DNA of 64,000 nucleotides, from positions 373,501 through 437,500 of the forward strand of contig NZ_CP013251.1 in assembly GCF_001583435.1 (NCBI RefSeq). Direction: 5' to 3'. This DNA comes from Endozoicomonas montiporae CL-33 (lineage in GTDB: Bacteria > Pseudomonadota > Gammaproteobacteria > Pseudomonadales > Endozoicomonadaceae). A program made the position numbers and the translations under genes. Of the stretch, positions 1,416 to 26,003 are shown piece by piece (the first letter of the stretch is position 1; each line of letters opens with the position of its first letter). A model generated the notes under the pieces. It did no database searches, was not told where the DNA came from, and was given only the letters and a program-made list of their open reading frames with translations.

Positions 1416-1482
1416 ATAACACCGTATCCTATATTCTAACTAGCTTGGATTCCCCCTCCATCCAAAGAGAGAGGGCTTAAAA

Positions 1483-2727: not shown

Positions 2728-2829
2728 ATACCCTCCCTCTGAATTTATATCTGATTATTCTCCACTCGTAGAAAGATGCTGAAAGCACTGATTTTTTTCA
2801 TTAATGACGTGGTTTTGTCAGCTTTCCAC

Positions 2830-4800: not shown

Positions 4801-4817
4801 CGGACAGTTACCTCCAT

Positions 4818-9488: not shown

Positions 9489-9504
9489 AATTACACCCTC
9501 AGCC

Positions 9505-12393
9505 TCAGTCGCTTTTTTCTTGCGCTATAGGCATCTGCGCCGGAATCAACACATACACACCCATTACATCTACCGGCAGAATGGGCTGAACCTTATAACT
9601 ACCTTTTGCATCCGCAGCGGTTCGCACACGACGATGATCACTTAACAACTGCTCAGCTTTATCTTTTGCCAGCTCATTCAACTGAGCTTCAAGCTGAGGT
9701 ACTTGCTGAATGGCTGTGCTGACATGTCGTTCAACCAGGGGTGGCGGCATATTGCGAACAGGTCTGGCATTTAACAGCTCTCTGGCTTCCTGACCTTTCA
9801 GGACAGAATCTGCTGATGAGCCTTCCAGTGCCAGTGCCATTGGCTCTTCACAAAGTAATATCTGTTCTGAACCTGGGCGGGAAATCATTAACTGAGTTCT
9901 CAGACGCAATAGCAACAAGGTTGTTTTGGTGCTGACAGAGTCGGTGAAAACAGAGCCGCATCGTGCAACAGAAAAAGTCGCCATAGCATCTTCTTCATGA
10001 GCGCCTTCGCTTAGGGCTGTTTCCAGCATATGGTCAGCCAGAATGCCAACCAGAGGATGAGTCCTGTGGATAAATGTGGCACCCGGCTTTGGCGGGTAGT
10101 GGAAATCTATACGTGGCGTGCCTGTTACGCTTTCAGCTGCCAGTCTTTCCTGCAAGCTTTCTGGCAGGGCTTCTGTTGGTAGTTTGTAGCCCTTATCCGT
10201 TTCTTCCAAAGCCGCATTCAGCTGATGACAGGCTGCGGTGACAAAGCGTTTAACATCGTCTTCACCACCCAGGACTGCCATGGTTTTGTTCCATTCCGGA
10301 AGCACGTCTTCTGGCTTTAAGCGGTGCTGGGCAAAGATGGTACGGTTTCTCTTGGCTTTTTCATAAGCCGAATTCCAGACAGCTTCCAGCTCTTCTTCAA
10401 CATCACCAAACAAGCTGGCCTGAGCCGTACCCTGCACAGAGTCTTTACCGGCAGCAGCTCCCTGACGTAACAGTACTGATTCCATCAATGCCTGAGAAAT
10501 ACGGTTATCATCATCCGGCATTGGCACGGACACGCCTAGCTCTTTGCGGATGGCATCAGCTTTACGAAGAATAACTTTTAAAACAGCACCATCTACGGGG
10601 TTATCCTGCCCATAAAGCATGGTAGCACGAACCACTTCAGCCGACTGACCAAAACGATCTACACGACCTTCACGCTGTTCATGGCGGGTTGGGTTCCAGG
10701 ACAGGTCGTAATGCACGACCGCAGTAAAGTATTCCTGAAGGTTAATACCTTCTGATAAACAGTCTGTTGCCACCAGAATCCGCTGTTCTCCATTGGCTTC
10801 TCCATCGACCATGGCATGAACTCTTTCTTCACGTTCAACCGGAGTCAGTTCACCTGTTACCGCTTCGATGGTGGCTTTTTTGAATGTCTTTTTTAACTCT
10901 TCAGCAAGATAGTGTGCTGTAGCAATGTAACGGCAGAAAACCACAGGCTGAAAACCTTCTTTGACCAGCCCTTTCAGGTGTTTGACCAGTGCTTTGAGTT
11001 TCGGGTCATTGGCAGCACCGTGCAGACCGGATGCCTGATCAATCAGTGAATGAAGTGTCTGGCTATCAGAAGTGTTGGCTCCCGGTTCGATATCGTCAGC
11101 CGACAGAGCTTCTTCTGTTCCGTCAAAAACTCGTTCCTGTGCCATTTCTTCAAATTGATCGAGATTAAAATCCTGATCGCCACTGTTGGCAGCAACTAAA
11201 CGGGTTCTGAGAGCACTGACCGCCGCTGAAGGAGAAGATGAAACACAACGCAGTAATGCCAAAGCAGCCCACCAATTAATGCGCTGTTGTCGTTTGTCGT
11301 CCTCACCTGCAGACTCAACCAGTTCACGGGCATAGTCCATAACCGAGCGGAACAAATCTCCCCAGTCACCGGTCAGGGTATAGGTGATTTCGGTGGTTTC
11401 CCTGTCCGGAAACAGTGATGAATCATCCTGCCATTCTTCGATATCCGGACGTCGCCTTTGTACGAAGTGCTCAGCAAGTTTCTGGCGTAAAGGGTTGCGG
11501 GCATCTTTAACGCCATCTTTAAGATTGATGAACTCAGGGCGCAATAAACCCAGAAGGTTATAAAACGCTTCTTCATCACCGCTATGAGGCGTAGCGGTAA
11601 GCAAAACCATATGGCGGTCTGGATCTTCACTCAGTCCTTTCAATAGCTGAAAACGTTTCTGTTTGCTTTGCATGCCACCACGTAAGGTGCATGTGTGAGC
11701 TTCATCGACAATCACTGCCTCGGGGCAGGAACGGTAGAATTCATCACGACGCTTGTCTGACTTGATGTAATCGAGACTAACAATGGTGAAATTCCAGGCT
11801 TCAAAAATGGAGGTTCCGGGTGGCAATCCCCGTTCCAACCGTGCAGCCGAGCTAGTTCGAACGATTGCAGCTCGAATGTTAAAGCGTTTTTCCAATTCAT
11901 CCTGCCATTGCTCACACAAATGCGGTGGGCAAAGTACGGTCAGGCGCTTGATTTCTCCCCGATCCAGTAGCTCTCTTGCGATCAGGCCTGCTTCGATGGT
12001 TTTACCGATACCTACGTCATCTGCAATCAGCAAACGTACAGTGTCGTGCTTCATAGCCATCAGCAGAGGCACCAGCTGGTAGGCTCGTGGCTCAACGGCA
12101 ATATTGCCGAAACTTCTGAAAGGGCCTGCTCCTGAGCGTAACTTCAGCATCATGGCATCACGCAGCAAACGACTTGCTGCATGAGTGCCAAAGGCTTTTG
12201 GATTAGGCAATGGAAAATGTGCCTGTTCAACGGGCATCTTTTCCAGTGGCAAAAAGATCACTGTTTTATCATCTTCTGCTGCGCCCATCGGGCGAAGGTG
12301 CAGAATCTGATTATTGGATTCGGGCAGAACAATCCATTCACGCCCTCGGGCAGCTACGATACTGCCCGGTTGAAAAGCGACCTGTACAGACAT
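9505..12393 (-). CDS. drmD: SNF2-family helicase, DISARM DrmD-like
   Basis: The 962-residue protein carries the SNF2/RapA arrangement: Q-motif-like region GAGPFRSFGNIAVEPRAYQL, Walker A LIADDVGIGKTIEAG (about residue 125), DEAH box VIVDEAHTC (about residue 228), LLTATPHSG (motif III), then the C-terminal helicase lobe with ATDCLSEGINLQ and REGRVDRFGQ. The N-terminal sequence and the GPFRSFGN segment look like DrmD, the SNF2-like helicase that defines class 1 DISARM. It begins 2 bp after the stop of the giant helicase gene and is followed after 16 bp by the methylase. It is probably an ATP-driven DNA translocase. The family is certain; the DrmD assignment is made from memory and needs an HMM search. 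Confidence 0.8.
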   Translation of the reverse strand: MSVQVAFQPGSIVAARGREWIVLPESNNQILHLRPMGAAEDDKTVIFLPLEKMPVEQAHFPLPNPKAFGTHAASRLLRDAMMLKLRSGAGPFRSFGNIAVEPRAYQLVPLLMAMKHDTVRLLIADDVGIGKTIEAGLIARELLDRGEIKRLTVLCPPHLCEQWQDELEKRFNIRAAIVRTSSAARLERGLPPGTSIFEAWNFTIVSLDYIKSDKRRDEFYRSCPEAVIVDEAHTCTLRGGMQSKQKRFQLLKGLSEDPDRHMVLLTATPHSGDEEAFYNLLGLLRPEFINLKDGVKDARNPLRQKLAEHFVQRRRPDIEEWQDDSSLFPDRETTEITYTLTGDWGDLFRSVMDYARELVESAGEDDKRQQRINWWAALALLRCVSSSPSAAVSALRTRLVAANSGDQDFNLDQFEEMAQERVFDGTEEALSADDIEPGANTSDSQTLHSLIDQASGLHGAANDPKLKALVKHLKGLVKEGFQPVVFCRYIATAHYLAEELKKTFKKATIEAVTGELTPVEREERVHAMVDGEANGEQRILVATDCLSEGINLQEYFTAVVHYDLSWNPTRHEQREGRVDRFGQSAEVVRATMLYGQDNPVDGAVLKVILRKADAIRKELGVSVPMPDDDNRISQALMESVLLRQGAAAGKDSVQGTAQASLFGDVEEELEAVWNSAYEKAKRNRTIFAQHRLKPEDVLPEWNKTMAVLGGEDDVKRFVTAACHQLNAALEETDKGYKLPTEALPESLQERLAAESVTGTPRIDFHYPPKPGATFIHRTHPLVGILADHMLETALSEGAHEEDAMATFSVARCGSVFTDSVSTKTTLLLLRLRTQLMISRPGSEQILLCEEPMALALEGSSADSVLKGQEARELLNARPVRNMPPPLVERHVSTAIQQVPQLEAQLNELAKDKAEQLLSDHRRVRTAADAKGSYKVQPILPVDVMGVYVLIPAQMPIAQEKSD

Positions 12394-12395
12394 GC

Positions 12396-15300
12396 TCAGG
12401 ATTCCCGTTTATCTTCAAAAGAGTTAATTTCACCAAAGAGGTAGCTGTGCTCGGAGAACAGGTCGAGCCATTTGTTCTTCTCTTTGGTAAATCGAATAAC
12501 GATAAAGCCTGCGTCTTCCAGTTTTCTGGTAATTGCTTCGTCTTTTTCTTTCTGGCTGGCATTTTCATGATGCGGTCCATCAATATAGATGGCGGCCTGA
12601 TACTCATCGTAATAAAAGTCAGGACAGGTTCCATGAGCCTCAAGGGTTTTCTGGGCTTCATCCGGTTCCTTTAATCCCAGTTCACGAACCTTTTCCAGCC
12701 AGGCTTTTTCCAGAGAACTTCCGGAAAGTCTGTCCAACTCATCGCTGTGAGGCGTAATGCGCTGAGACTTTGCGTTGACCAACTGGCACAGAATTTCTAC
12801 GACTTCACGCTCATGCTCCTGATCCTTTCTGTCAATCAGATCATGGTCAGGCTGGTTGTAGTAGCTGAGCAGGCAACGATAACAACCTGCCTCACAGGAG
12901 TCTTTGTGGGTGTGATGCTCCTGAATATTGTCTAAAGACCAGGGCTTGTCTTCATCCACTCGTTCAAAGTGACAAATCTTTAAAGCCTGCTCAGCTACCT
13001 GGCTCATTGCCTGAGGATCATTTGCCAGCCTTGTCAGTACGCCTGCTCCGCCTTCTGCAGCCTCATAGAATAAAATGGCACGACGATTATCTCTGCGAGG
13101 CAGAGGTTCAGACATAAGCTCCGATTCTTCCAGCTGGAATACCGCTTCAATGCCTCGCTTGAGCGCGTACTGAAGCGTGGTCATTGTGACTTCACCCGGT
13201 TGTACCGGAGGCCTCAGGATCAGGATATTCCGACGATCCTCGACATAAGGCACAATGCGTTCTGGCGGAGTTTTATCATCCGGTTCTTTGGAGTCTTTTT
13301 TGTCTTTATCATCAGGCTCTGCTTCCCAGAAGCCTGTGATTGGATTGATGTTGAAACCAAGCACGGTTTTATCTTTGCGACGACGCCATCCAAGGTTCAT
13401 TCGCCATACTGTGGCTGATGGCGCGTACTGAGCTTCCATAACAGCTTCGTCATCTAACAGAAACTCGGTTCGATCCCGACGCAGGCCACGACCATTGACA
13501 GCAAACTGTACTGTGGTTTGCATTTCATAGCCCTGGCGTAATCTTTCCTCTTCATCTGCGGTGATTCGCTCAACACGCTTTGTACTGACGTTTTCGATGC
13601 GATAGAGGTTTGGAATTTTTACTTCGCCTTCCAATAATTCATTGCAGGAAGCACAAAGGTCCAGGCTTCGCTGTTCACGGAAATGACCGTAACCACAACT
13701 TGGACAAACCCGCGCGTAGTCTTTGCTGAGTTGAGCACCTTCGGCAATCTGGTCAGGATCAGAAATACTGAGAATGGCTTTGTGAACCTTGTACTGACTG
13801 CCTTCATGGTAAATGCGGCTTTGTGGACCAAATTCAGCCAAAGCAAGAAAGCGTGGTCGGCTCAGGAAGTTTTCACGACCAATTTTGCCCTTTCTGGCAG
13901 GGATATATGCCATTAATGGCAGGCGTGGGAAGTTGTATCCGGGCAGGAATCCTTGCGATGCCAGATAGCGATAGGTGTAGAAATCAGAGTTTACACGGGC
14001 GTTTTCAGCCAGCAGTAAGTTTCTCTGCCTGTAAGCTTCATCGTAACGTTGCTTGGCATCCTTCCGCTCTCTTTCTGTGGCTGCTGCATTTGTGGATACC
14101 TTGTGGTTGAGATCCATTTGCAGAGTGGTTGCTTTATACAGTTCACGCCAGCGATTAAGAGCATGATCAAATTGACCAAAGGCTCCGGCAACACAGTTTT
14201 CGAGCCAGGTGTCGTTATACCATGGGGCGGTTTGCTCGGTAAGCTCGCTCTTCAACATACTGATGATTCGAATCGCACGACTATGGGTTTTCTTTTGAAC
14301 CTCATTGCGATCCATGTTGTCAGCAAGCTCCTGACGTAATGGCTTGGTATCCTGCTCCATATCCAATAGAGCTTTGATGCTGTTATCCAGCTTCTGTCCT
14401 GTTTCGGATAGCCAGACGGCGTGCAGATGGCTTTCGATAAGCTCACGGTTAGAGAGGTCAAGGTTAGGCGCTTTAACCTGACCATGAACCATGCGAACCG
14501 GATCTTCAAAAAAGTACTGATCGTGTGGACTTTGCGCTGCACAGTAGGTGATAACTAATGCTGGCTGACCAGAACGACCTGCACGACCACTACGCTGGGC
14601 ATAGTTAGCAGGTGTTGGCGGCACATTTCGCATGTATACCGTATTCAGGCTGGAAATATCTACACCAAGCTCCATGGTTGGGGAGCAGAACATAAGTGGT
14701 AGTTCCGGATACTTGCCTTTTTCACTGCGGAATTTAGCTTCACGCTCCAGCCGGTCTTCCATATCTACCTGAGCGGTATGCTCTCGGGCTTCGTAATCGA
14801 ATAAATGATGAGTAGATTTTGACAGCACTCCCGCTGCATTACGGTATAGATTCCGGAAGAATGGATTGTCTGCAGCAAGGCTTTGCAAGACAGCATGCTC
14901 CTGTCCTTCAGGCACAACCCGCCACTGGAGATTTCCGGAGTTGATTCTCCAACCAATAACACCAGTTTCGATCTCTTCTTCAACCACCATGCCGTATTCT
15001 TTGGCTGCACTTAGAACCGTATTGATGATCTCGGGATAGCTTTGGTCGGTAATTTTTTCATAAGCAGCATTATTTTCGCCCCAGGTGCTTTTCTTTTTCA
15101 GCTCCCGAGCCAGCGTCGAGCGACTGCCTCCGCGAACAACAACATCGGTTATAGAGCCGCGTCTCGCTCTTTGCCCAAACCTTTCTGGAAGCGGTTCAAA
15201 AACCATGTATTTCCAGGCCGCTAAACGTTCATCTTCACTTAACGCCCAAGGCTCACGCAGATAGTTGGAGCTGGCACTTCTCAGTGAATCTCTCTGATCC

Positions 15301-17684
15301 GGGTCCAGATATCTGGATTGAATACACAGGCCTTTTCGCATAGCATCCAGAACAGTTTTCAGGATATAAGCCCTGCGTTCAGGTTCAGCCTGCTTCAAAA
15401 TTTCCGGGGCACTTTCCCAGCTATCAGGATCTTCTGCGCAATCCTGCAAGTCTTCATAAGTGACCTGCAATAGCCCCAACTGTTCGAGGTTTGGATTGTT
15501 TAATCGCCAGCCACGGCGCAAGTCGTGATAAAGCCTGTAACCCAAGACATCCCTGATAGCATTTTCTACATTGCGCTTCGCTCCGCCCTTCAGAGTGAGA
15601 CTTGCATCATTGACGTATTCTTCCCGAATAGATGGGTCAGAACTGTTGAACCCCAGCGCTTCATATACGGCTTGAGCAATTGTCCCATCCGCAAGATATC
15701 CATCAGAAGATTTTTCCATTGCGGCCAGCAAAGCACTTCTCAAGATAAGGATTTGCAGGAAGTCATTGAAATGTCCCGCCTGGAGGGATGCATCCTGCCG
15801 GTTGTCCGTAAAGCCCAATAGCTTTTTAGCTTCTGCAGGAAGACTGCTGTCCTGCTCATAAAGGAATGACAATGCAGAAAGCGTCAGCATTGTGGTGGCA
15901 GAGCTACGACCTTCACCACTCAGGGAGGAAAGCCGTGAAGATTCCCGACCGGCAGTGTATGAACTGCGGCAATTCAGGCAAAAGCGAATGCTGCCGGGTA
16001 TTAACCAGCCTTCCATTCCTGAGCTATCGAGTTCTCCTCCAGGATTGACTGCCAGTTTGTTCGGCTTGTGCTTTTTGTAGGTGGATTTCAGCCTTGGCTC
16101 ATCTTTCGTGAAATCCATCCAGTTTTCGGGGTAGCTATCAACAGCATCTTCATCCCAGATGCGACCATCGCTATCCGGCATAAGGAATGCGTGTTGAGTA
16201 TCATCATCTTCAAGAGCCCGTTCATCTAGGTTACGAGGATCAAGGGAACCCACTGCTCCATTGGATGCATTCCAGACTGGGTAGTAGTCCTGACCACACT
16301 CCCGACAAAAATGAACATTGAAAAGACGCTTCTGACGCTCTGTGCCCGGAGCATATTTCTGGCCATCAAGAGTGATGTGGCGATGACCTTCCGGTTCGAG
16401 TGTTGTATAAGCTGTTCCGGCACCAGAGATAAACTGGTGCAAACGGAATGCGAACAGGCTCTTTCCTTTATCATTCTGGCAACGATAAGCATTCAGCAAA
16501 AACTCTTCCAGCCAAGGTTTGCAATGCTTTTCGTCCTGCTCTGTATCGGCTGCGAGTTGTTCTGCAGCCTGAGCCAGCGTTATAGGCTTGGCTCGAACCC
16601 ATTTATCGTCTTCCTTAGTCAATCCCAAGGTAAGCTCTACCCAGACAGAAGCTGGATGCTTGACCATCTCTGCATAGGAAGCATCAGGTACATTTTCTGA
16701 CAAAGCTTGCTGCAAGTCTGAGAGGATATCGTCTTTACCGATTGAATCAGGCGTAACCCTTTGCAATGTTTCAGTGATGATATTTTCTGGTTTAACAGCT
16801 CCACCAAACAAACGGCTTGCTACATCTGAAACAACTTTATTTCGTTCTTCTGCCGTACCATCTGTTGCCATCGTGGCAGAAGTGCCAATGCACAACAGTT
16901 TTTCGTTTAATGCTTCTCTTACCCTGCGGACAAGCAAGGCAACATCAGCACCTTGCCTGCCACGGTAAGTGTGCAACTCATCAAGAACTAGAAATTCCAA
17001 ACCTTTGGCATTTCTGATAACCGCTTTATCCTTGTCATCCTGACGAATCATCAGCAACTCAAGCATCATGAAGTTAGTCAGAAGGATGTCTGGCGGATTA
17101 CTGGCAATACGATTTCGCTCTTCCTCTGATTCCTGACCGGTATAGCGGCCAAAGGTTACTGGCTCACTGCCTTTTGTGTAATCACCAAGAAATTTCCCGA
17201 GCTCTTCCAGCTGGCTATTTGCCAGTGCGTTCATCGGATAGATAATGATTGCCCGGGTTTTGGGTTCACTATTCCTTTCTTTAGCTTTCAGGATTGCATC
17301 AACAATAGGGATGAAATACGACAGAGACTTACCAGATCCAGTACCAGTAGTCAGCACGTAGCTTTCTCCTGCCTGAGCTCTTTGGATCGCTTCCTGTTGG
17401 TGATGATGCAGAGTTAATGAGACTCCCATTGAACCTGTATCTTTTCCGGCTCTGAAAATCTGTCCACACTCGGAATGTAGTATGCCTTTAGCTACTAACT
17501 GCTCAACAGAGCTTCCTGCCTTAAAGCTTGGATTCACCTGTATCAGCGGGGCGGGCCAGTAAAGCTGCTCCTGATGAATTTTTTCAACAAATGAACGAAT
17601 ATCGTCCGCTTTTATTTTGCAGAAGCTACGGGAGAATTCGGAGTATTGAGAAATCAGGTGTTCCCTGAATTTGAAAGCATCCAT
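12396..17684 (-). CDS. Giant DEAD/DEAH helicase with DUF1998 and nuclease-like C-terminus
   Basis: This 1762-residue protein has Walker A VLTTGTGSGKSLSYF (residues 110-124), a DELH box FLVLDELHTYRG (about residue 230), and a second helicase lobe with MFCSPTMELGVDIS and QRSGRAGRSGQ. The C-terminal third has DUF1998 features: YEAAEGGAGVLTRL and a cysteine cluster CEAGCYRCLLSYYNQPDHD. The last 120 residues (CPDFYYDEYQAAIYIDGPHH, then an acidic helix and VIRFTKE) resemble the Vsr/DUF559 type of PD-(D/E)XK nuclease fold. In DISARM the helicase (DrmA) and DUF1998 protein (DrmB) are separate; Druantia DruE and MrfA join the two. Here a possible nuclease is added. It starts 5 bp after the small HTH gene. 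Probable role: main DNA-processing motor of the defence system. Confidence 0.8.
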   Translation of the reverse strand: MDAFKFREHLISQYSEFSRSFCKIKADDIRSFVEKIHQEQLYWPAPLIQVNPSFKAGSSVEQLVAKGILHSECGQIFRAGKDTGSMGVSLTLHHHQQEAIQRAQAGESYVLTTGTGSGKSLSYFIPIVDAILKAKERNSEPKTRAIIIYPMNALANSQLEELGKFLGDYTKGSEPVTFGRYTGQESEEERNRIASNPPDILLTNFMMLELLMIRQDDKDKAVIRNAKGLEFLVLDELHTYRGRQGADVALLVRRVREALNEKLLCIGTSATMATDGTAEERNKVVSDVASRLFGGAVKPENIITETLQRVTPDSIGKDDILSDLQQALSENVPDASYAEMVKHPASVWVELTLGLTKEDDKWVRAKPITLAQAAEQLAADTEQDEKHCKPWLEEFLLNAYRCQNDKGKSLFAFRLHQFISGAGTAYTTLEPEGHRHITLDGQKYAPGTERQKRLFNVHFCRECGQDYYPVWNASNGAVGSLDPRNLDERALEDDDTQHAFLMPDSDGRIWDEDAVDSYPENWMDFTKDEPRLKSTYKKHKPNKLAVNPGGELDSSGMEGWLIPGSIRFCLNCRSSYTAGRESSRLSSLSGEGRSSATTMLTLSALSFLYEQDSSLPAEAKKLLGFTDNRQDASLQAGHFNDFLQILILRSALLAAMEKSSDGYLADGTIAQAVYEALGFNSSDPSIREEYVNDASLTLKGGAKRNVENAIRDVLGYRLYHDLRRGWRLNNPNLEQLGLLQVTYEDLQDCAEDPDSWESAPEILKQAEPERRAYILKTVLDAMRKGLCIQSRYLDPDQRDSLRSASSNYLREPWALSEDERLAAWKYMVFEPLPERFGQRARRGSITDVVVRGGSRSTLARELKKKSTWGENNAAYEKITDQSYPEIINTVLSAAKEYGMVVEEEIETGVIGWRINSGNLQWRVVPEGQEHAVLQSLAADNPFFRNLYRNAAGVLSKSTHHLFDYEAREHTAQVDMEDRLEREAKFRSEKGKYPELPLMFCSPTMELGVDISSLNTVYMRNVPPTPANYAQRSGRAGRSGQPALVITYCAAQSPHDQYFFEDPVRMVHGQVKAPNLDLSNRELIESHLHAVWLSETGQKLDNSIKALLDMEQDTKPLRQELADNMDRNEVQKKTHSRAIRIISMLKSELTEQTAPWYNDTWLENCVAGAFGQFDHALNRWRELYKATTLQMDLNHKVSTNAAATERERKDAKQRYDEAYRQRNLLLAENARVNSDFYTYRYLASQGFLPGYNFPRLPLMAYIPARKGKIGRENFLSRPRFLALAEFGPQSRIYHEGSQYKVHKAILSISDPDQIAEGAQLSKDYARVCPSCGYGHFREQRSLDLCASCNELLEGEVKIPNLYRIENVSTKRVERITADEEERLRQGYEMQTTVQFAVNGRGLRRDRTEFLLDDEAVMEAQYAPSATVWRMNLGWRRRKDKTVLGFNINPITGFWEAEPDDKDKKDSKEPDDKTPPERIVPYVEDRRNILILRPPVQPGEVTMTTLQYALKRGIEAVFQLEESELMSEPLPRRDNRRAILFYEAAEGGAGVLTRLANDPQAMSQVAEQALKICHFERVDEDKPWSLDNIQEHHTHKDSCEAGCYRCLLSYYNQPDHDLIDRKDQEHEREVVEILCQLVNAKSQRITPHSDELDRLSGSSLEKAWLEKVRELGLKEPDEAQKTLEAHGTCPDFYYDEYQAAIYIDGPHHENASQKEKDEAITRKLEDAGFIVIRFTKEKNKWLDLFSEHSYLFGEINSFEDKRES

Positions 17685-17689
17685 GAAGA

Positions 17690-17911
17690 TTATCCTGCAG
17701 TTTGGCTAGCATTCTCTTTTTGGCTTCTGTTATCAGAAGCACCACCGGAGCGAACCCAGGCATCTACTTCAGGCACCTGAAATTTCCATAAACGACCAAT
17801 CTTATGTGCGGGCATTTGCCTGCTACTGATCCAGCTGTATACGGTGTCTCGGCTGACACCTAAATGATGGGAAATTTCTTCGACGGATAGCCAGCGATTG
17901 AGTGAGCTCAT
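17690..17911 (-). CDS. Excisionase-type HTH protein, first gene of defence operon
   Basis: The 73-residue protein has a winged HTH of the excisionase/MerR-like HTH_17 type: WLSVEEISHHLGVSRDTVY, then the wing HKIGRLWKFQVPEVDAWV. Such proteins bind DNA as recombination directionality factors or as small regulators. It lies only 5 bp upstream of the giant helicase gene, so it probably belongs to the same transcript. The position at the head of the operon suggests autoregulation. No integrase is nearby, which argues against a classical excisionase role. The upstream divergent gap (17912-18199) must hold the operon promoter; no clear sigma-70 boxes stood out. Confidence 0.75.
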   Translation of the reverse strand: MSSLNRWLSVEEISHHLGVSRDTVYSWISSRQMPAHKIGRLWKFQVPEVDAWVRSGGASDNRSQKENASQTAG

Positions 17912-18199
17912 GGGAGAAGGGCTTATTTACCAGAAACAACTAAGCAGACTATCGAATGGGGGTAGGGTTTACAATGATCTATACCTGTTTGTACGGCTTT
18001 GGCCGAGTATCTTCTGGCATTTATGCTGGACACAGCACATAAATCGACTATGTTGGATGCATAGGCTTATGCAGGAGCCTGCCGTCCACGCTGGCAAAAC
18101 ATTTGTACTGCCCACATACCTTTTCGCACATCCCCTGACCCTGACTTCCCGTAGTGGACACGGAACGATTATTACCTTTTGACAGGTGAGGGAGTTGTT

Positions 18200-18871
18200 G
18201 TGTCTGCTATTCCAGAGCTACATGGCTTTCTTTGGATTGAGAAAATTAAAAAGCATGCTAAGGATTTGAAAAAGAGCCTTCCCGCTCTTCGATATCTTGA
18301 GCGACTTGAAATCTCAGCTCGTCAGTTTGCGGGTAAGCGGGACTATAAAGAATGCCGCAGCTTGCATGAAAAGCATTTGCTGTCGTATAGGTATGTTAAA
18401 GATCAAACTGCTGAGCAGCAATTGCATCAATGGCAGTGTGCTTTTTGTGGGCTTGCTTTTGATCCAAGCTCGAAAGCAGACAAAAAACATATAGAGCAAC
18501 ATAAACTGTTTGAAATCGCATATTACAAGACAGGTTATAACCCTGACTGTTATGCAGTCCGAGAAGACAAAATCCGTGATGTTAGAGAAAAATATAAAAA
18601 TCTTTCATCTAGCGATAGTCAAGCGACCAGATTAGAAATCTGCATAGGTATCTACAAACGATTCTATGATCGATCTTTTGAGAAGGCTATTCTTTGTGGA
18701 TACTGGGAGCAGCACCCACCTTTTCATAGATTTGTCGCAATGACAGAAATTAAAAACCCTCTTCGCCCAGATGATTTCAAGATGTTTCATGAAAAGTTTG
18801 GAATCCTTAAAGGGCATATTCCACCCGGGCATTCATATTGGACTCCTCAAGGCAGCAATTTCCTGTACTGA
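18200..18871 (+). CDS. Orphan protein with zinc-finger-like motif
   Basis: The frame is open from 18179, but the GTG at 18200 is the better start because GAGGGA lies just upstream at suitable spacing (about 223 residues). I do not recognise the family. Near residue 80 WQCAFCGLAFD is followed by KKHIEQHK, which together look like a C2H2-type zinc-binding site (CxxC then HxxxH). The rest is lysine- and aromatic-rich and probably helical, with no signal peptide or membrane segment. It is transcribed away from the defence operon and stands before the Xre gene, inside the presumed transposon cargo. A nucleic-acid-binding role is possible but unproven. Confidence 0.6.
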   Translation: MSAIPELHGFLWIEKIKKHAKDLKKSLPALRYLERLEISARQFAGKRDYKECRSLHEKHLLSYRYVKDQTAEQQLHQWQCAFCGLAFDPSSKADKKHIEQHKLFEIAYYKTGYNPDCYAVREDKIRDVREKYKNLSSSDSQATRLEICIGIYKRFYDRSFEKAILCGYWEQHPPFHRFVAMTEIKNPLRPDDFKMFHEKFGILKGHIPPGHSYWTPQGSNFLY

Positions 18872-18892: not shown

Positions 18893-19120
18893 TCAGTCCA
18901 GCAGTTGGAAAGCTCTCACCCCGAGTGCGCTTGCAAGCTTGTATATCCCTTTAATGGTAATGTTCTTTTCGCCACGTTCAATTTGTCCCACGTAGCTGCG
19001 ATCCATTCCTGCTCGATGGGCCAGTTCATCTTGCGTGATTGCCTGACTGTCACGCAGTTCTCTCACGCGTTTACCAAACCTTATAACCGGATCACCCTGC
19101 ATCAAAAATCCTTTCTCCAA
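18893..19120 (-). CDS. Xre-family HTH repressor
   Basis: The 75-residue protein is almost entirely an HTH_3/Cro-CI domain: FGKRVRELRDSQAITQDELA, then HRAGMDRSYVGQIERGEKN and a final helix KLASALGVRAFQLLD. The second ATG (19102, MQGDPVIRFG) is an equally likely start. Length and layout resemble restriction-modification controller proteins. It is divergent from the OrfA-like/cas operon with a 100-bp gap. Xre-type regulators are known in type I-F3 CRISPR-associated transposons, where they control the guide-RNA and tniQ/cas region, so a similar role here is a reasonable inference. Confidence 0.85.
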   Translation of the reverse strand: MEKGFLMQGDPVIRFGKRVRELRDSQAITQDELAHRAGMDRSYVGQIERGEKNITIKGIYKLASALGVRAFQLLD

Positions 19121-19220
19121 AAGAAAGGACTATCAGTCGCTTTACAACCCTTAACGACGGACTATGATTACCAAAGTGTAAACAGCCATAAATACGTTCA
19201 ATTACTACGAGGCTTGCGGC
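19121..19220. promoter_or_regulatory. Divergent control region between xre and the cas operon, with direct repeat
   Basis: The 100-bp gap separates two divergent genes. It contains GGACTATCA at 19128-19136 and GGACTATGA at 19159-19167, 31 bp apart (about three helical turns), a plausible pair of Xre operator sites. The second copy contains TATGAT, which could serve as a -10 box for rightward transcription. Binding is inferred only from position. Confidence 0.35.
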
Positions 19221-19559
19221 ATGGCTGAGAGAAAACGTGGCAGCTATACCCCTGAATTTCGGCAAAAGGCCGCAGACTTGGCTATGGCTTCTGGTGTCCG
19301 CTTAGGTGATATCGCAAAAACGTTGGATTTAGTTCCCAGTACGCTGAGCAATTGGGTAGCCAGAAGAAAGCAGGAATTGGGTAAGGGCTCAGTCAAAAAA
19401 GAAGCCACTGAGCAACAGAAAGCCGAGCAGCTTCCTTTGGAAAAAGAGAAGCCGTTAGTAAACAGCTCAACTGAAATTGAAAAATTGAAGCTCGAAATTA
19501 AACGACTACAGCAGGAGAGGAAGGTAGTAAAAGAAGCCATTCGACTGCTAACAAGCTGA
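19221..19559 (+). CDS. IS3-family OrfA-like HTH/coiled-coil protein (orphan)
   Basis: The 112-residue protein has the HTH_Tnp_1 domain of IS3/IS911 OrfA (YTPEFRQKAADLAMASGVR, then DIAKTLDLVPSTLSNWVARR) and a C-terminal leucine-zipper-like helix (IEKLKLEIKRLQQERKVVK). GAGG is 9 bp before the ATG. The usual partner OrfB (DDE catalytic subunit) is absent: cas5 starts 12 bp after this stop. It is therefore either a remnant of an inserted IS3 element or an OrfA reused as a DNA-binding protein at the head of the cas operon. The frame is intact and the junction is tight, which favours co-transcription with cas5. Confidence 0.75.
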   Translation: MAERKRGSYTPEFRQKAADLAMASGVRLGDIAKTLDLVPSTLSNWVARRKQELGKGSVKKEATEQQKAEQLPLEKEKPLVNSSTEIEKLKLEIKRLQQERKVVKEAIRLLTS

Positions 19560-19571
19560 GTAGTAGCAATC

Positions 19572-20249
19572 ATGGGAAGACCAAGACACATCACTCTTAA
19601 GGTATGGGGTGACTTTGCATGCTTTACGAATCCTGCCTTTTCTGTGGAGCGGTGGTCATACCCTGTTATGACCCCCACGGCTGCCAGAGGAATTCTCAAT
19701 GCAATTTACTTCCATAAAGAAGTCTGCTGGATTGTCACTAAAATCAATGTTCTCAAGCCAGTTCGCTGGCGAGGTTTTGGTACGAACGAAATTGACCAAT
19801 GCATACGGAAAAAAGATATTGCCAAAGTGCTGTCTGATGGTTATCAGGGGGATGTCATGGTGACAGATGAGAGGCGTTTACAATTTCATAACCTGATTTT
19901 GAAAGATGTAGCCTATGTCATTCATGCTTATGCTGGTCTATTGCCTCGGTATCGTGAGCATCCCCATATGACAGAACAGGAGCATAAGCAGGTATTTCAG
20001 GAGCGAGTAAAATCTGGTCTATGTCGTTTTACTCCCTGGTTGGGGCAGAGAGACTACATCGCTTACTTTGATGAAGCTACTTCGTTTGATGAGCCTGTTG
20101 ATCTCACAGAGCCACTGGGAATGTTGCCGCTTGAGATCATTGAGAAAAGTGGGAAAGTGCAACCTGTATTTTTCAATGCCTTCATTAAAAAAGGGCGGAT
20201 AAGAGTGCCAAGGGTGGGGGCTGTACTACCATGCTGCTCAAGGAGCTAA
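19572..20249 (+). CDS. cas5c: Cas5c (Cas5d), type I-C Cascade subunit and presumed crRNA processing enzyme
   Basis: The 225-residue protein matches the Cas5 family: LKVWGDFACFTNPAFSVERW at the N-terminus, then YPVMTPTAARGILNAIYFH, then KPVRWRGFGTNEI. In type I-C systems Cas5 replaces Cas6 and cuts pre-crRNA. By position against B. halodurans Cas5d (Tyr46, Lys116, His117), Tyr46 and the His (His138) are present, but the residue aligned with the catalytic Lys seems to be Glu137 (TEQEHKQVF). Alignment was done by eye. The gene overlaps cas8c by 19 bp and lies 12 bp after the OrfA-like gene. No cas3 is found upstream, unlike standard I-C loci. Confidence 0.9.
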   Translation: MGRPRHITLKVWGDFACFTNPAFSVERWSYPVMTPTAARGILNAIYFHKEVCWIVTKINVLKPVRWRGFGTNEIDQCIRKKDIAKVLSDGYQGDVMVTDERRLQFHNLILKDVAYVIHAYAGLLPRYREHPHMTEQEHKQVFQERVKSGLCRFTPWLGQRDYIAYFDEATSFDEPVDLTEPLGMLPLEIIEKSGKVQPVFFNAFIKKGRIRVPRVGAVLPCCSRS

Positions 20250-21922
20250 CACGCTACTTTTCCCAGAACCGCAATGTAATGCCTCCATTCGGATGGCAGC
20301 TCCATCGCTTGCGCTGGGTAATTGTTGTTAATGAGCATGGAGAGTTTTGCGATATTCAAGATTTGGCCACTTCTAGCTGCCCTAAGGGAGCTATGACCCA
20401 TGTTCCTAAAAAAGTAGTGCGAACCAGAGGTATCAAAAGCTGCCAGCTCTGGGATCATTCTGGCTACGTTTTGGGAAAAGATATTGAAGATCCAGAAAGG
20501 GCAAAAAGACTTCATAAGCACTTTGTAGGCAGATGCCAGCTTATTGCCGATGAAACCAAGGATTCAGGTGCAGAAGCTGTGGCAAAATTCATATCAAATT
20601 TTCAGGAACAAAATATCTCTCAACACCCTCTATGCGAGGAGCTTTTCAAGGCGGAAGCAATCAGTTTCAGGCTTAAATCAGATGACGTTTTAGTGTTTGA
20701 GCGCCCTTCTGTTCATCAATGGCTTTCTGATAACCCGCTATCTTCTAAAACTGAAACTGGGCAGTGTCTGGTCTGCGGAGAATGGGGGAATATTGAAAGG
20801 ATACTGCCAACGATAAAAGGTATTCGCGGCTGCAATCCTATTGGTGTCAGGCTGACAGCTATTAACAATATCAGAACAGGAAACTCTTGCCTGGGAGCAT
20901 ATGGGCTTACACAAGGGTACTGTGCTCCTACTTGTGAGCAGTGTTCTTATAAGTACGGAAATGCACTGAACCACCTGCTTCGTCCGGATTCACAGAATAA
21001 AATTCATATAGGCCGATTTACGCTTGTGTTTTGGTGCCCTCAGGGGCAACAGCTGGAAATATTGATACGAAAAGCGATTCTTGGTGGCAAGGATACTCAG
21101 CAGGTGAAGGATAAAAACGGAAAAATTCTGTTGAAACCAAATCCAACCGGATTTCATTGGGTTCCAGAGCCTTCCAGTAATGTTGTGCAACACCTGCAAC
21201 AGCAATGTCGAAATGGCTATGTGAATGTAGTCGTTTTTCGTGGCAAGGATAGAAGAGCGGCTATTGAGTTTTACCAACGCATTCCGCAAACAGAACTGGT
21301 ACATAATCTCTGTCATTGGCTCTCATGTACCGCAGTTTCTGACCGTGAATTAACTCCCCTGAGAGTATTTTTAGCCTTCTTATCTCAGAACAAGGATCTG
21401 GAGCATTTGCGTTCATCCGTATTGCTCTCATTGCTAAGAGCTATGTTTAGCAAAAAGCCTGTCAGTTTTTCAATCATCAAGCAGCTGACAGACTACACTG
21501 GTCGTAGGATAAAGCTCTCTTTACTCCATGAAAAACTGATCAGTTATATGTCCTCTTTACTACCAGAAGGCTACAAAAGCTCCAAAGCATTTTTGTGCGG
21601 TGAATTAATTGCACTGTTGGTGAAGTGTCAGGAAGAGGCCAACGGTGAAGCGACAACTATCCGCTGTGATACCGCGACAGTAACTTCACCTGCAAGGAGG
21701 CTGGCTTCTTATCTCAAGAAAAACCGCCACCACCTTAATCTCATTGGAAAGCAAAGCTTTGGCAGGCGGGTTAATCTCGAAAAAAAGATTCAGCGAGCAG
21801 TGTCTGAAATTGGTGTATTTCCGGAGCTTCTTGATCCTGATGAGCAGTTAATTTTACTTTCTGGTTATTACTGCCAGCGTCAAGCGCTTTTCCCAATCCG
21901 TAAGGAGAAAAAGCAATGCTAA
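20231..21922 (+). CDS. cas8c: Cas8c (Csd1), large subunit of type I-C Cascade
   Basis: The 563-residue protein carries features of Csd1: N-terminal MLLKELTRYF, SYxLG-type SGYVLGKDIED, a CxxC pair CLVCGEWGNIERILPTIKG, then NPIGVRLTAINN and KYGNALNHLLRPDSQ with IGRFTLVFWC. Length is normal for the family. Cas8c recognises the PAM and holds the target; in Cas3-less systems it would bind without cleavage. The start overlaps cas5 by 19 bp and the end overlaps cas7 by 7 bp, so translation is coupled. Confidence 0.92.
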   Translation: MLLKELTRYFSQNRNVMPPFGWQLHRLRWVIVVNEHGEFCDIQDLATSSCPKGAMTHVPKKVVRTRGIKSCQLWDHSGYVLGKDIEDPERAKRLHKHFVGRCQLIADETKDSGAEAVAKFISNFQEQNISQHPLCEELFKAEAISFRLKSDDVLVFERPSVHQWLSDNPLSSKTETGQCLVCGEWGNIERILPTIKGIRGCNPIGVRLTAINNIRTGNSCLGAYGLTQGYCAPTCEQCSYKYGNALNHLLRPDSQNKIHIGRFTLVFWCPQGQQLEILIRKAILGGKDTQQVKDKNGKILLKPNPTGFHWVPEPSSNVVQHLQQQCRNGYVNVVVFRGKDRRAAIEFYQRIPQTELVHNLCHWLSCTAVSDRELTPLRVFLAFLSQNKDLEHLRSSVLLSLLRAMFSKKPVSFSIIKQLTDYTGRRIKLSLLHEKLISYMSSLLPEGYKSSKAFLCGELIALLVKCQEEANGEATTIRCDTATVTSPARRLASYLKKNRHHLNLIGKQSFGRRVNLEKKIQRAVSEIGVFPELLDPDEQLILLSGYYCQRQALFPIRKEKKQC

Positions 21923-22815
21923 CCAATGTGCTGCAACATCCTAGAGATATTTTTTTCCTGTTTGATATTGAGAATGGAAACCCAAACGGCGATCCGGATC
22001 AGGATGGGGCTGTTCGCTATGATGATGAAGTGAGAAAAGCTGAAATGACGGGTATTTGTCTGAAGCGAAAAATCAGAGATCGGGTGTCGCTGATGAAGGA
22101 CTGCGTTCCCCCTTACGATACCTATTTTTCCAGTTCTCAAACTGTGCTCAATGATCATCATCGCTGGGCTATGGAGCAAGCAGATATAGAAGTAGCAGGA
22201 CTGGAGAGCGACAGAGGCAAAAAACAGAAGAAGGTGTCAGCATCAGATAGGCGGAAAGTAACCAGTCTACTGACAGAGCGCTTCTATGACTTAAGAGCTT
22301 TCGGGGCACCTTTAAAAGCTTCGGAATTTCCCGGTGAGGTGGTGAGAGGACCTTGTCAGGTTCCAATGATTCAATCCTTAAATACTGTTATGCCCGTCGA
22401 TGTTGGTATTACACGGGGTTCTGTCACCAACGAGAGGGATGCTGACAAAGAGAGCACGATGGGTCAGTTCTCAAAAATTAGGCATGCTGTTTTTATGGGG
22501 GTCTGTACAGTATCCGCCCATCTTTCGGAGAGTACAGGATTCTCAGAACAAGATTTTGAGATTATGGTTGATGCCATTGACTATATGTTTGAAGAGGATC
22601 GAGCTCATAACAGAATCATCAACCTGCAGGGAATGGTTGTAATGAAGCATGAAAGCCGTCTTCGTAGTGGAAAATTGCATGCTCTCAAAAAGGCTGTAGA
22701 GGTTGAGCAGAAGAGAAAATATACCGAAACTTTTGATGATTACGAGATAACGGTTAATAAGAAACTGTTACCAAAGGGTGTCTCTATAGAGCGAAATGAT
22801 TTTGAAACTCAGTAG
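21916..22815 (+). CDS. cas7c: Cas7c (Csd2), crRNA backbone subunit
   Basis: The 299-residue protein starts with the classic Cas7 motif FLFDIENGNPNGDPDQDG, continues with CLKRKIRDRV, and has the glycine-rich region VGITRGSVTNERD. Cas7 multimerises along the crRNA spacer. AAGGAG sits just before the ATG inside the end of cas8c. It is the last cas gene: cas4, cas1 and cas2, which normally follow cas7 in type I-C, are absent, and a CRISPR array begins 149 bp later. The 22816-22964 gap is the leader-like region. Confidence 0.93.
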   Translation: MLTNVLQHPRDIFFLFDIENGNPNGDPDQDGAVRYDDEVRKAEMTGICLKRKIRDRVSLMKDCVPPYDTYFSSSQTVLNDHHRWAMEQADIEVAGLESDRGKKQKKVSASDRRKVTSLLTERFYDLRAFGAPLKASEFPGEVVRGPCQVPMIQSLNTVMPVDVGITRGSVTNERDADKESTMGQFSKIRHAVFMGVCTVSAHLSESTGFSEQDFEIMVDAIDYMFEEDRAHNRIINLQGMVVMKHESRLRSGKLHALKKAVEVEQKRKYTETFDDYEITVNKKLLPKGVSIERNDFETQ

Positions 22816-22964
22816 CATTTTAACCGTTCGTTTTATAGCCTTCTCCCCACCAGATATTTACGAATTTTCTGGATTGGCAGGAGGCAAATAGCTTGTTAGG
22901 AGCATGCTTTTTTCGCTTGGAAATTGCATATTCCTCATACTTTCTAATGGGTTATGCGACTCCT

Positions 22965-23330
22965 GCTGTAAGAGCCCTTTGGTTGGAGGGTTATTTCAGC
23001 AATGCTTATGATGGGCAAATTGCTATCAGCGCTGTAAGAACCCTTTGATTGGAGGGTTATTTCAGCGATCCGGGCTTTTTTTCCGTTGATTTTGTCTCTG
23101 TACGAGTCCTTTGATTAAAGGGTGTTTTCAGCAGCGTACCGTGTTCACCTTTTTCGAGAGCTGCTGTAAGAGCCTTTTGATTGGAGAGTGTTTTCAGTAC
23201 CGTTCGAGCAAGCCAGTTTCTCTTTGAGATTGTAAGAACTCTTTGATTGGAGGGTGCTTTCAGCTATGTCAGTGGGTTAGGTCCTGAAGACGCAGCTGTA
23301 AGAGTCCTTTGATTGTAGGGCTCTTACTTT
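22965..23330 (+). CRISPR. CRISPR array with six diverged 36-bp repeats and five 30-bp spacers
   Basis: Repeats start at 22965, 23031, 23097, 23163, 23229 and 23295, an exact 66-bp period. The consensus begins GCTGTAAGAG and ends GTGTTTTCAGC. No two repeats are identical. The core forms a hairpin of about six pairs around a GATT (once GGTT) tetraloop, and changes in some repeats keep the pairing: repeat 3 has CCTTT-GATT-AAAGG where others have wobble pairs. Orientation is that of the cas genes, with a roughly 10-nt tag after the stem as expected for Cas5-cleaved I-C crRNA. The 66-bp unit also equals a usual I-C repeat plus spacer. No spacer matched the flank between 24.6 and 24.9 kb by eye. 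Confidence 0.88.
23298..23327 (+). terminator. Terminal CRISPR repeat turned into a long hairpin
   Basis: The last repeat departs from consensus after its loop: GTAAGAGTCCT pairs with AGGGCTCTTAC across an 8-nt loop, an 11-bp stem with one G-T pair. It is followed by TTT. It may end the crRNA precursor, or the altered end may reflect decay. Function is inferred. Confidence 0.45.
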
Positions 23331-23519
23331 GTATCTATTTCTCACAACATTATCTGCTACACTTTTCTGAATCAGACATTTCAGTTGTTCTGAGATGGCA
23401 GAAGTAAACCCTTTGAAAATGCATCTTTTTTGCAAATAAAAGGAATGACAGCTTCCGCTTTAAAGCTTGGTAATCAGGCGTTTATTTAAGTGACAATACG
23501 GTGGCAATTCACCCTACCT

Positions 23520-23545
23520 GCAGTAGAGTCTCCATGCTCTACTGC
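23520..23545 (+). promoter_or_regulatory. Perfect 9-bp hairpin just before tniQ
   Basis: GCAGTAGAG (23520-23528) and CTCTACTGC (23537-23545) form a perfect inverted repeat with an 8-bp loop, 14 bp before the tniQ ATG. No good ribosome site is seen between it and the start. It could be an operator or an RNA element that limits tniQ translation. Confidence 0.4.
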
Positions 23546-23559
23546 CTACTGTAAAATTA

Positions 23560-24474
23560 ATGGATGCTTATTTTCCTGCACCTTTCCCTGACGAATCTCT
23601 ATACAGCCTGATGGCAAGATACAGGGTTTCTCTCCCACACAGCAATCGGCACGTATCTCATAGAGAGTTTGGTTATGAGCAGGCATTGAGCAAGCCGAGT
23701 TCTATCGGGCAGGATGCACTTGCATTTTATCGGCGGCACTCAGAGTTCTGGAAAAGTGAGCGTAATTTCATTAGGACAATGACTGCCAGCAATTTAATAT
23801 TTCCATTCTTAACAAAATCAGTGCAAGACAGGTTCTATAAAGCTCTCCAAGGTTATAGCAGTGGAGTAAACTCTCTGTTACGGCCATATATTTACTTCCC
23901 AAACCATAACTTTGGCAGCCTAAAGTATTGTCCGGAATGTGTAATACATGACATTGATCAGTATGGAGTAGCTTATTGGCATTGCAGCCATTGTGTTTGG
24001 TTTGCCACTGCATGCTGGCAGCATGGCTGTTGTTTAAAAGAGGTGCAAAATGAGAGTAGGTTTGAGCTTCCTCCGCAGCATCAAGCTAATTCAGAGTTAG
24101 GGCGGGCTGATGACTCAGGTGTTGCACTTTGCATATTGGTGAAAGAGTTGCTGGGTGGTGGGTTGCCTTGGGGAGTATCCATGTCTGACATTCGGGCATG
24201 CTACCAGGAGGTTATTACAGTCAAAAGTTCAGAGATAAAGGCCTTCGCTAGGGGCTTACAATGCGAATTGGAAGAGAACTGTACTCCCGAACTTTTACAA
24301 TTGTTGAAAATTCGCAGGACGTTCAATGGCACAGGCAGACGTCTATGGGTTTATGATGTGCTCAAAGGACACAGCATTGAGCATATCCCAGAACATCTAC
24401 TGGTAATAAACCAGTTATTCTCAAGCATCCAGAGGCTAAGGGAAGTTTTGACAACTTCAGATCATGTATCCTGA
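23560..24474 (+). CDS. tniQ: TniQ/TnsD-family transposition targeting protein
   Basis: The 304-residue protein shows TniQ features in order: N-terminal FPAPFPDESLYSLMARY, a central SLLRPYIYFPNHNFGSLKYC segment, then the zinc-finger YCPECVIHD (Cys124, Cys127), YWHCSHC (His141-Cys145) and CWQHG (Cys152, His155). TniQ links Cascade or a DNA-bound TnsD to the TnsC/TnsAB transposase in Tn7-like elements. At 304 residues it is shorter than Tn7 TnsD (about 500) and in the range of CAST TniQ proteins. It follows a Cas3-less I-C Cascade and a CRISPR array and is the last gene before the presumed transposon end. The last codons overlap one of the TTTTGACAAC sites. Confidence 0.88.
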   Translation: MDAYFPAPFPDESLYSLMARYRVSLPHSNRHVSHREFGYEQALSKPSSIGQDALAFYRRHSEFWKSERNFIRTMTASNLIFPFLTKSVQDRFYKALQGYSSGVNSLLRPYIYFPNHNFGSLKYCPECVIHDIDQYGVAYWHCSHCVWFATACWQHGCCLKEVQNESRFELPPQHQANSELGRADDSGVALCILVKELLGGGLPWGVSMSDIRACYQEVITVKSSEIKAFARGLQCELEENCTPELLQLLKIRRTFNGTGRRLWVYDVLKGHSIEHIPEHLLVINQLFSSIQRLREVLTTSDHVS

Positions 24475-24599
24475 AAGGGTGTTGAGCAGCATAAGTTGTC
24501 AAAACTATTATTTCATGGGTAGGCTGGGAAGCCTTGGTATGTAGTAAGCTTAGTTGTCAAAACTTTTATGATTCTCCAATAAAATAGAATTTTGACAAC
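24443..24599. repeat. Presumed Tn7-like transposon right end with four TTTTGACAAC-type sites
   Basis: Four copies of a 12-14 bp motif occur in 157 bp: AAGTTTTGACAACTT (24443-24457, inside tniQ), AAGTTGTCAAAACT (24493-24506), AGTTGTCAAAACTT (24552-24565) and AATTTTGACAAC (24588-24599). Arrays of TnsB sites of this size mark Tn7-like ends. If the end is the usual ACA, it falls at 24597, with ACGTT as possible target duplication. Motif orientation is mixed (first and last alike, middle two reversed), which is not typical. The other end is outside the window. Confidence 0.6.
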
Positions 24600-24615
24600 G
24601 TTACTTACCATGATG

Positions 24616-24656
24616 AATACCCTCATAGTCGTTTAATTTTCGGCTTTGAGGGTATT
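24616..24656. terminator. Hairpin between transposon end and thrE-like gene
   Basis: AATACCCTCA (24616-24625) and TGAGGGTATT (24647-24656) form a perfect 10-bp stem with a 21-nt loop, followed by TTGG. The T-run is weak, so it may be a terminator or a structural element near the insertion point. Confidence 0.4.
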
Positions 24657-25988: not shown

Positions 25989-26003
25989 TTGTTTAGGTAT
26001 TTT

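Follow-up and report, generated by a model that had tools for sequence, protein, structure and literature searches.

CRISPR-associated Tn7-like transposons (CASTs) with a type I-C effector were reportedly described by Rybarski et al. in 2021, and those of type I-F3 carry a cas8f-cas7f-cas6f effector. Passages of three papers list I-C CASTs as a known kind (PMC11656645, PMC12669027, PMC12452197), one of them stating in 2025 that their transposition has not been experimentally validated (PMC12452197). In the passages of another paper that deal with I-F3 elements, Xre proteins act as regulators, I-F3a elements express only the guide for their attachment (att) site on entry into a new host, and guides can serve att sites with differences at wobble positions because mismatches are tolerated (PMC11406308). 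The same source reports that many Tn7-like elements have asymmetric ends, the close-packed one being nearest to the att site, and that these ends typically read TGT, with named exceptions (PMC11406308). Here, we analyze a window of 64,000 bp (C1:373501-437500) from the single-contig genome (5,430,256 bases) of Endozoicomonas montiporae CL-33, together with the stretch directly to its left (L042, C1:360001-373500); positions without a prefix are those of the window. Judging from its sequence, the locus is a structurally complete Tn7-like transposon with a type I-C Cascade and without cas3. We hold with good confidence that it is a type I-C CAST, likely homed to gor, the gene for glutathione-disulfide reductase, by an RNA guide encoded between its CRISPR array and tniQ.

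Type I-C CASTs are a known kind; the present example is complete, chromosomal and apparently guide-homed. The first-pass annotation of the window had proposed the end of such an element, and this reading is supported: tnsABC lie to the left, a TniQ profile matches Tn7 TnsD and the locus has no cas3. The gor guide, the gor insertion site and a tandem remnant beyond the right-hand end are additions to that annotation.

Ends and transposition proteins

From the boundaries of its inverted repeat, the predicted element spans C1:362494-398079 (35,586 bp). Its portion inside the window (1-24579) was delimited by its ends, by Pfam matches of TnsA and TnsC and by alignments with Tn7 chains, and the portion to the left (C1:362494-373500) holds the gor-side end, tnsA, tnsB, tnsC and further cargo. 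TTGGAGAATCATAAAAGTTTTGACAACTA is present at one end and, in inverted orientation, at the other, the two copies being identical (30 of 30 bases when the preceding A is included), and this perfect inverted repeat of 29-30 bp compares with at most 12 bp in 400 random pairs of 200-bp windows. Moreover, both boundaries are flanked by TAAAA, as expected of a 5-bp target-site duplication. The far end (24446-24579), with its terminal inverted repeat at 24551-24579 and the flanking TAAAA at 24580-24584, thus has in the gor-side end the matching left-hand partner that had been anticipated, and the paired ends enclose tnsA, tnsB, tnsC and tniQ.

The repeated motifs noted after tniQ were recovered as well: TTTTGACAACT occurs exactly at 24446, inside the 3' end of tniQ, at 24494 and at 24552, and with one mismatch at 24590, just beyond the predicted element; one further one-mismatch copy lies in cas7 (22466). 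In the whole genome, the TTTTGACAAC motif has 37 sites with at most one mismatch, versus 102 for a reversed control pattern. Four of the 37 fall within 155 bp at or after the end of tniQ. A further pair is located at C1:362511-362560, directly after gor and 11 kb to the left of the window. The TnsB-like motif itself is not rare, and its significance lies in its clustering. The tnsA-side end (L042:2494-2560), located by motif search and end comparison, has three sites at a 19-bp pitch, while those of the far end (24552, 24494 and 24446) are spaced; this asymmetry, with the close-packed sites on the gor side, fits the Tn7-like rule (PMC11406308). Both ends read TTG.

On the side where the first-pass annotation suggested looking for them, tnsA, tnsB and tnsC are found 6.3-10.9 kb left of the window (C1:362606-367249), head to tail on the + strand, with frames that overlap or nearly abut. 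TnsA (L042:2606-3487; 293 aa) matches PF08722 (29.7 bits, cut-off 26.5) and aligns with the Tn7 TnsA chain 1f1z (E 5.3e-5), TnsC (L042:5684-7249; 521 aa) matches PF13401 (AAA_22; 29.4 bits, cut-off 27) and aligns with the Tn7 TnsC chain 8glu (E 1.5e-19), and TnsB (L042:3439-5682; 747 aa), which has no Pfam match, aligns with the Tn7 TnsB chain 7pik (E 1.7e-24). Regarding the residues that we take to form the active sites, D, D and E are in register in TnsB, and in TnsA the E and D are in register and the lysine is not, so that two of three positions are kept and the third falls where the alignment gives no answer. None of the three proteins has an NCBIfam match; TnsC stays below the TniB family model, the TniB search giving instead two frames, at 2.65 Mb (773 aa) and 3.49 Mb (865 aa), and the search with PF09299 matched nothing anywhere, controls included, and hence carries no information on TnsB.

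TniQ (23560-24474, +; 304 aa) matches PF06527 (41.7 bits, cut-off 27) and no NCBIfam model. When solved structures were searched with a profile of this protein and its relatives, Tn7 TnsD was matched (E 7.1e-9), in agreement with the transposon-type TniQ that had been expected. The whole genome holds no second TniQ-domain protein at E <= 0.001 and would therefore have no TnsD.

Type I-C effector and CRISPR array

The effector genes, the CRISPR array and tniQ lie together where the first-pass annotation had placed them. Cas5c (19572-20249, +) matches TIGR01876 (109.5 bits, cut-off 85) and Cas5c structures. Cas8c (Csd1; 20231-21922, +) and Cas7c (21916-22815, +) pass the Pfam cut-offs (PF09709, 251.5 bits versus 27; PF05107, 182.4 versus 33.2) and fall under the stricter NCBIfam ones (TIGR01863, 201.2 versus 218.65; TIGR02589, 181.0, just below 182.25). 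The three genes matched I-C models only and no I-F model (Cas8f, Cas7f or Cas6f), and the set of Cas5c, Cas8c and Cas7c without Cas6 is that of a type I-C effector. This Cas5c is related in sequence to chains described as pre-CRISPR RNA (pre-crRNA) processing endonucleases and may cut the repeat RNA. The array (22965-23330, +) consists of six degenerate repeats and five spacers with a 66-bp period, and its last repeat forms an extended hairpin (z -4.41 in folding against shuffles). The array spacers were also considered as homing guides and rejected, none matching in gor among the eight best matches listed per spacer.

The nuclease and adaptation genes had been reported missing from the locus. 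Cas1 and Cas3-HD matches indeed all lie outside the element (2.31-2.35 and 4.21-4.22 Mb), the only Cas3-HD match of the genome being at 4.21 Mb. Cas2, Cas4 and Cas6 were not found among the element open reading frames (ORFs) scanned, a set that does not cover every short ORF and was not extended to the genome. For cas6, the reported absence stands but is not a loss, because type I-C systems normally lack this gene. These Cas1 and Cas3 genes accompany two other host systems, one of type I-E (Cas7/Cse4, Cas5e and Cas3 over their cut-offs, repeats with a 61-bp period) and one of type III-B (Cmr3 under its cut-off, Cmr2 over); a canonical I-C system was not noticed in the host stretches read, no genome search having been aimed at one.

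A predicted guide matching gor

Between the array and tniQ lies the predicted homing guide (23492-23518, +). Its sequence, GACAATACGGTGGCAATTCACCCTACC, and that of gor at L042:2429-2455, GATAACACAGTTGCTATTCACCCCACT, both encode DNTVAIHPT, from the 3' end of gor; 20 of their 27 bases are identical and all seven mismatches fall at third codon positions. Dinucleotide shuffling of the 229-bp interval (2000 replicates) gave peptides in common with Gor of at most six residues, against nine observed. When the interval was compared with 888 open frames (>=100 aa) from 457.5 kb of chromosome, two exceeded six residues, Gor with nine and another with 11, the latter being, by our own reading of the letters, the interval's own reading frame. 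Over 32 bases from its start, the guide agrees with the family's gor loci at 18-24 positions and with the host gor at 21, and it is therefore not a copy of the host allele.

The predicted guide is preceded by an atypical repeat-like sequence (23460-23491, +) with the handle TTATTTAAG, in place of the TTATTTCAG found in two of the six array repeats, and followed by a hairpin (23520-23545, +; folded as 23518-23546, z -5.41) that resembles the terminal repeat of the array. The guide has the array orientation, and the geometry is that expected for type I, with the candidate protospacer-adjacent motif (PAM) upstream and the insertion downstream; the distance to the element is 65 bp when measured from the protospacer start and 33 bp when measured from its end, for a protospacer of 32 nt. 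A guide that matches the gene beside the element is what characterizes a guide-homed CAST.

In the mechanism that we propose, the guide would be transcribed and processed by Cas5c and would lead Cascade and TniQ, presumably in contact with each other, to the 3' end of gor; there, TnsA and TnsB would be brought in by TnsC and would insert the element by cut and paste just after the stop codon. Wobble mismatches would probably be tolerated, so that one guide could serve many gor alleles, and guides for insertion into other DNA would come from the ordinary array.

gor as a recurrent insertion site

The upstream neighbour of the tnsA-side end is gor (NF004776, 731.5 bits, cut-off 480), a gene found in 29 of 37 family genomes (E <= 1e-150). 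Its end could be located in 27 of these 29 loci (L088 and L089 were dropped), and a TnsB-like motif begins 26-29 nt after the stop codon in seven of the 27, host included, for an expected rate of 0.007 per locus; the other 20 have no such motif at this distance. Directly after gor, three relatives carry tnsA pieces of 75, 90 and 159 aligned aa (G023, G014 and G021, respectively; 42-48% identical), and a fourth (G011) has a 37-aa piece further away. No intact second element was found at gor in the family loci fetched, and, in nine relatives, the 19-60 kb downstream of gor were scanned for an inverted copy of the gor-side end, with no hit exceeding 16 bp. In G022, the counterpart of the gene at window position 25995 lies ~1.2 kb after gor; therefore, everything in between was either gained here or lost in G022.

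Just outside the element, 24588-24632 (+) agrees at 37 of 45 bp with the inner part of the gor-side end, as a direct repeat. It is likely the remnant of a second, truncated tnsA-side end that belonged to an earlier element at this site, and hence probably records a tandem insertion at gor. A gene for a ThrE-like exporter (PF06738; 24765-25988) lies between the element and DUF1007; it has no match in the stretches fetched downstream of gor in relatives and may be leftover cargo.

Several points weigh against guide-directed homing of this element to gor. Both the homing and the crRNA processing are predictions made from sequence, and the P value attached to the seven gor loci (6e-10) is nominal only, because the loci are related and both the motif and the distance window were set after a first look. 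Upstream of the protospacer, the candidate PAM reads TTT or CTT, TTC being the usual one of type I-C. The repeat-like stretch before the guide folds like its shuffles (z -0.69; 47 of 200 as good), and the guide was seen in one element, the locus of E. acroporae (L059) ending in cas7. Regarding the array, its spacers have best non-self matches of 20-23 of 32 in 457.5 kb of host chromosome, the whole array matched phages and plasmids only at E 5 and E 1, and IMG/VR gave no match for any of the five spacers, searched with their first 24 nt (bases 6, 12 and 18 free, otherwise exact). Finally, palindromes that resemble the inverted repeat and have a similar left arm also follow gor at L066 and L082, loci without TnsB-like motifs, and the outer 17 bp of the repeat could be a gor hairpin; the ends would then shift ~17 bp inward and the 5-bp duplication would disappear. 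Insertion into the loop of this hairpin, ~50 bp from the protospacer, was considered, and the inverted-repeat boundaries were preferred because it leaves no such duplication.

Relatives and alternative explanations

Among 554 candidates, 16 proteins match TniQ at E <= 1e-3, of which P0001-P0011 are 47-100% identical, both members with an organism name being from Endozoicomonadaceae; for Cas8c, 26 of 6433 candidates match, with P0017-P0028 at 55-100% identity. The only relative from a scan of named genomes is E. acroporae L059, in which xre, HTH_Tnp_1, cas5, cas8 and cas7 follow in the same order and the upstream neighbours differ. The tnsB and tnsC of E. acroporae (63% and 67% identity within the aligned portion) are on another contig than L059, and a TniQ search for the rest of its element yielded nothing closer than a distant TniQ. 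Of 390 sampled genomes from the order, 16 have a Cas8c match, and besides the host only one is close (G007, 67%), the others being 25-34% identical; viral contigs scanned with two Cas8c peptide patterns gave no relative.

A genome of the same genus, G020, absent from the matches of this sample, holds two further I-C CAST-like loci which, like the present element, combine cas5c-cas8c-cas7c and tniQ with tnsB and tnsC. One (L092:10071 to L093:1007) lies after gcvP, with a 582-aa TnsD-like protein and two full repeats at 66-bp spacing plus a third partial one, the repeat, beginning with GCTGTGAACAGCC, being similar to that of the present element. The other (L094-L095) has nine repeats ending in TTGAAAC and a 636-aa TnsD-like protein, whose gene lies with tnsC and tnsB ~18 kb from cas and tniQ and presumably belongs to the same element. 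Besides their longer TnsD-like protein, the two loci differ from the present element in Cas8c (24-30% identical) and TniQ (30-34%).

These loci bear on the possibility that gor is chosen by TniQ itself through TnsD-like DNA binding, the guide-like stretch being an unused gor fragment. Indeed, both loci have a TnsD-like protein besides TniQ, and one of them is next to gcvP, which makes protein homing probable among kin. For the present element we regard it as improbable: its single TniQ (304 aa) has the size of the second, short TniQ of the G020 loci (309 and 293 aa), and the gor match is guide-sized, in array orientation and flanked by a repeat-like handle and a hairpin. One genus would therefore contain I-C CASTs homed by protein and others apparently homed by a guide.

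We consider it equally doubtful that the element is a decayed CAST, no longer mobile. The repeats are degenerate, the cargo includes a PsyrT-like gene split by an IS3-like insertion and a truncated older end adjoins the element; yet all tns, cas and tniQ frames are open, the inverted repeats of the ends are still identical, and active-site residues are kept at the DDE positions of TnsB and at two of the three aligned positions of TnsA. That the CRISPR locus serves defence or silencing and merely sits on a Tn7-like element is very improbable, for although the cargo is rich in defence-like genes and the host I-E Cas3 is available in trans, the element has no cas3, tniQ follows the array, and a guide matching the host's own gor would be self-targeting if used for defence.

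Returning to a CAST homed to gor by its guide, it seems reasonably probable that the element represents a distinct branch of I-C CASTs in Endozoicomonas and kin, which would have abandoned protein homing and would find gor by a private, wobble-tolerant guide, placed outside the array and under the operator of the cas genes. RNA homing as in I-F3 and some I-B1 elements would then have had an independent origin here.

Regulation and cargo

Next to the cas operon lies a gene for an Xre-type helix-turn-helix (HTH) regulator (18893-19120, -; PF01381), with a 74% identical neighbour in E. acroporae, and the operon is headed by a small HTH_Tnp_1 protein (19221-19559, +; PF01527; 61% identical in E. 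acroporae). Between xre and the operon, a candidate operator (19154-19182) has 28 nt (19154-19181) identical in E. acroporae L059. The sequence TGATTACCAAAGTGTAAA from this interval recurs inverted before the guide (23459-23476, three differences in 18), where this imperfect second copy overlaps the repeat-like sequence. The recurrence is suggestive only, because two of 100 shuffles of the window equal it with two matches and the pattern has no match in L042. Xre likely represses both the cas operon and the guide/tniQ unit through this shared operator, and by analogy the element may be regulated in an I-F3a-like manner.

The cargo inside the window (3-17911, -) consists largely of defence-like genes (PADLOC and NCBIfam matches). 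Long genes of this kind occupy 4818-17684, including a DrmMI or type IIG-like methylase, a DruE-like helicase and another helicase, which scores 744 bits as DpdE in PADLOC and is below the NCBIfam cut-offs for DrmD and DpdE. Left of the window, the cargo includes a PsyrA/PsyrT-like pair (L042:7305-12050), with the PsyrT-like gene split (profile 2-304 and 303-688) and an IS3-like frame pair near the break. A 230-aa open frame beside xre (18179-18871) has no Pfam or NCBIfam match.

Comparison with known systems

In the literature, the term I-C is absent from the main texts of PMC10293859 and PMC11406308, and the I-C passages of PMC11127173 are unrelated to CASTs. A search for Endozoicomonas with Tn7 returned one paper only, on coral reef biotechnology by its title, and one for glutathione reductase, Tn7-like and attachment site returned none, the founding I-C CAST paper being outside this comparison. 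As far as passages on them go, the type I-C CASTs of Rybarski et al. (2021) are reportedly, like the present element, Tn7-like with a type I-C effector. Relative to these passages, which give no att site or homing route for I-C, the present element adds its ends, its gor site and a predicted gor guide on a complete chromosome. With both ends, a home site and a predicted native guide, it brings together the parts needed to test an I-C CAST, and the resulting RNA-guided insertion set would be compact because the I-C Cascade needs no Cas6.

Like Tn7, the element has tnsA, tnsB and tnsC, asymmetric ends and an insertion point just after a conserved gene, and it differs in that no TnsD was found at E <= 0.001 and that its ends read TTG rather than TGT. 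According to the passages on I-F3 CASTs, these mostly share with it a single TniQ, an Xre-family regulator and a wobble-tolerant att-site guide (PMC11406308). The differences lie in the effector, here type I-C cas5-cas8-cas7 in place of the I-F3 set, and in the att gene, since gor is not among the four named in the review for I-F3 elements (guaC, yciA, ffs and rsmJ). In the I-B1 CAST at comM, the crRNA likewise reads the coding sequence of the att gene and a single TniQ is present, the Cascade subtype and the att gene being different (PMC11406308). If our reading is correct, the present element would be a further case of guide-based homing, in which the same strategy is used with another Cascade subtype.

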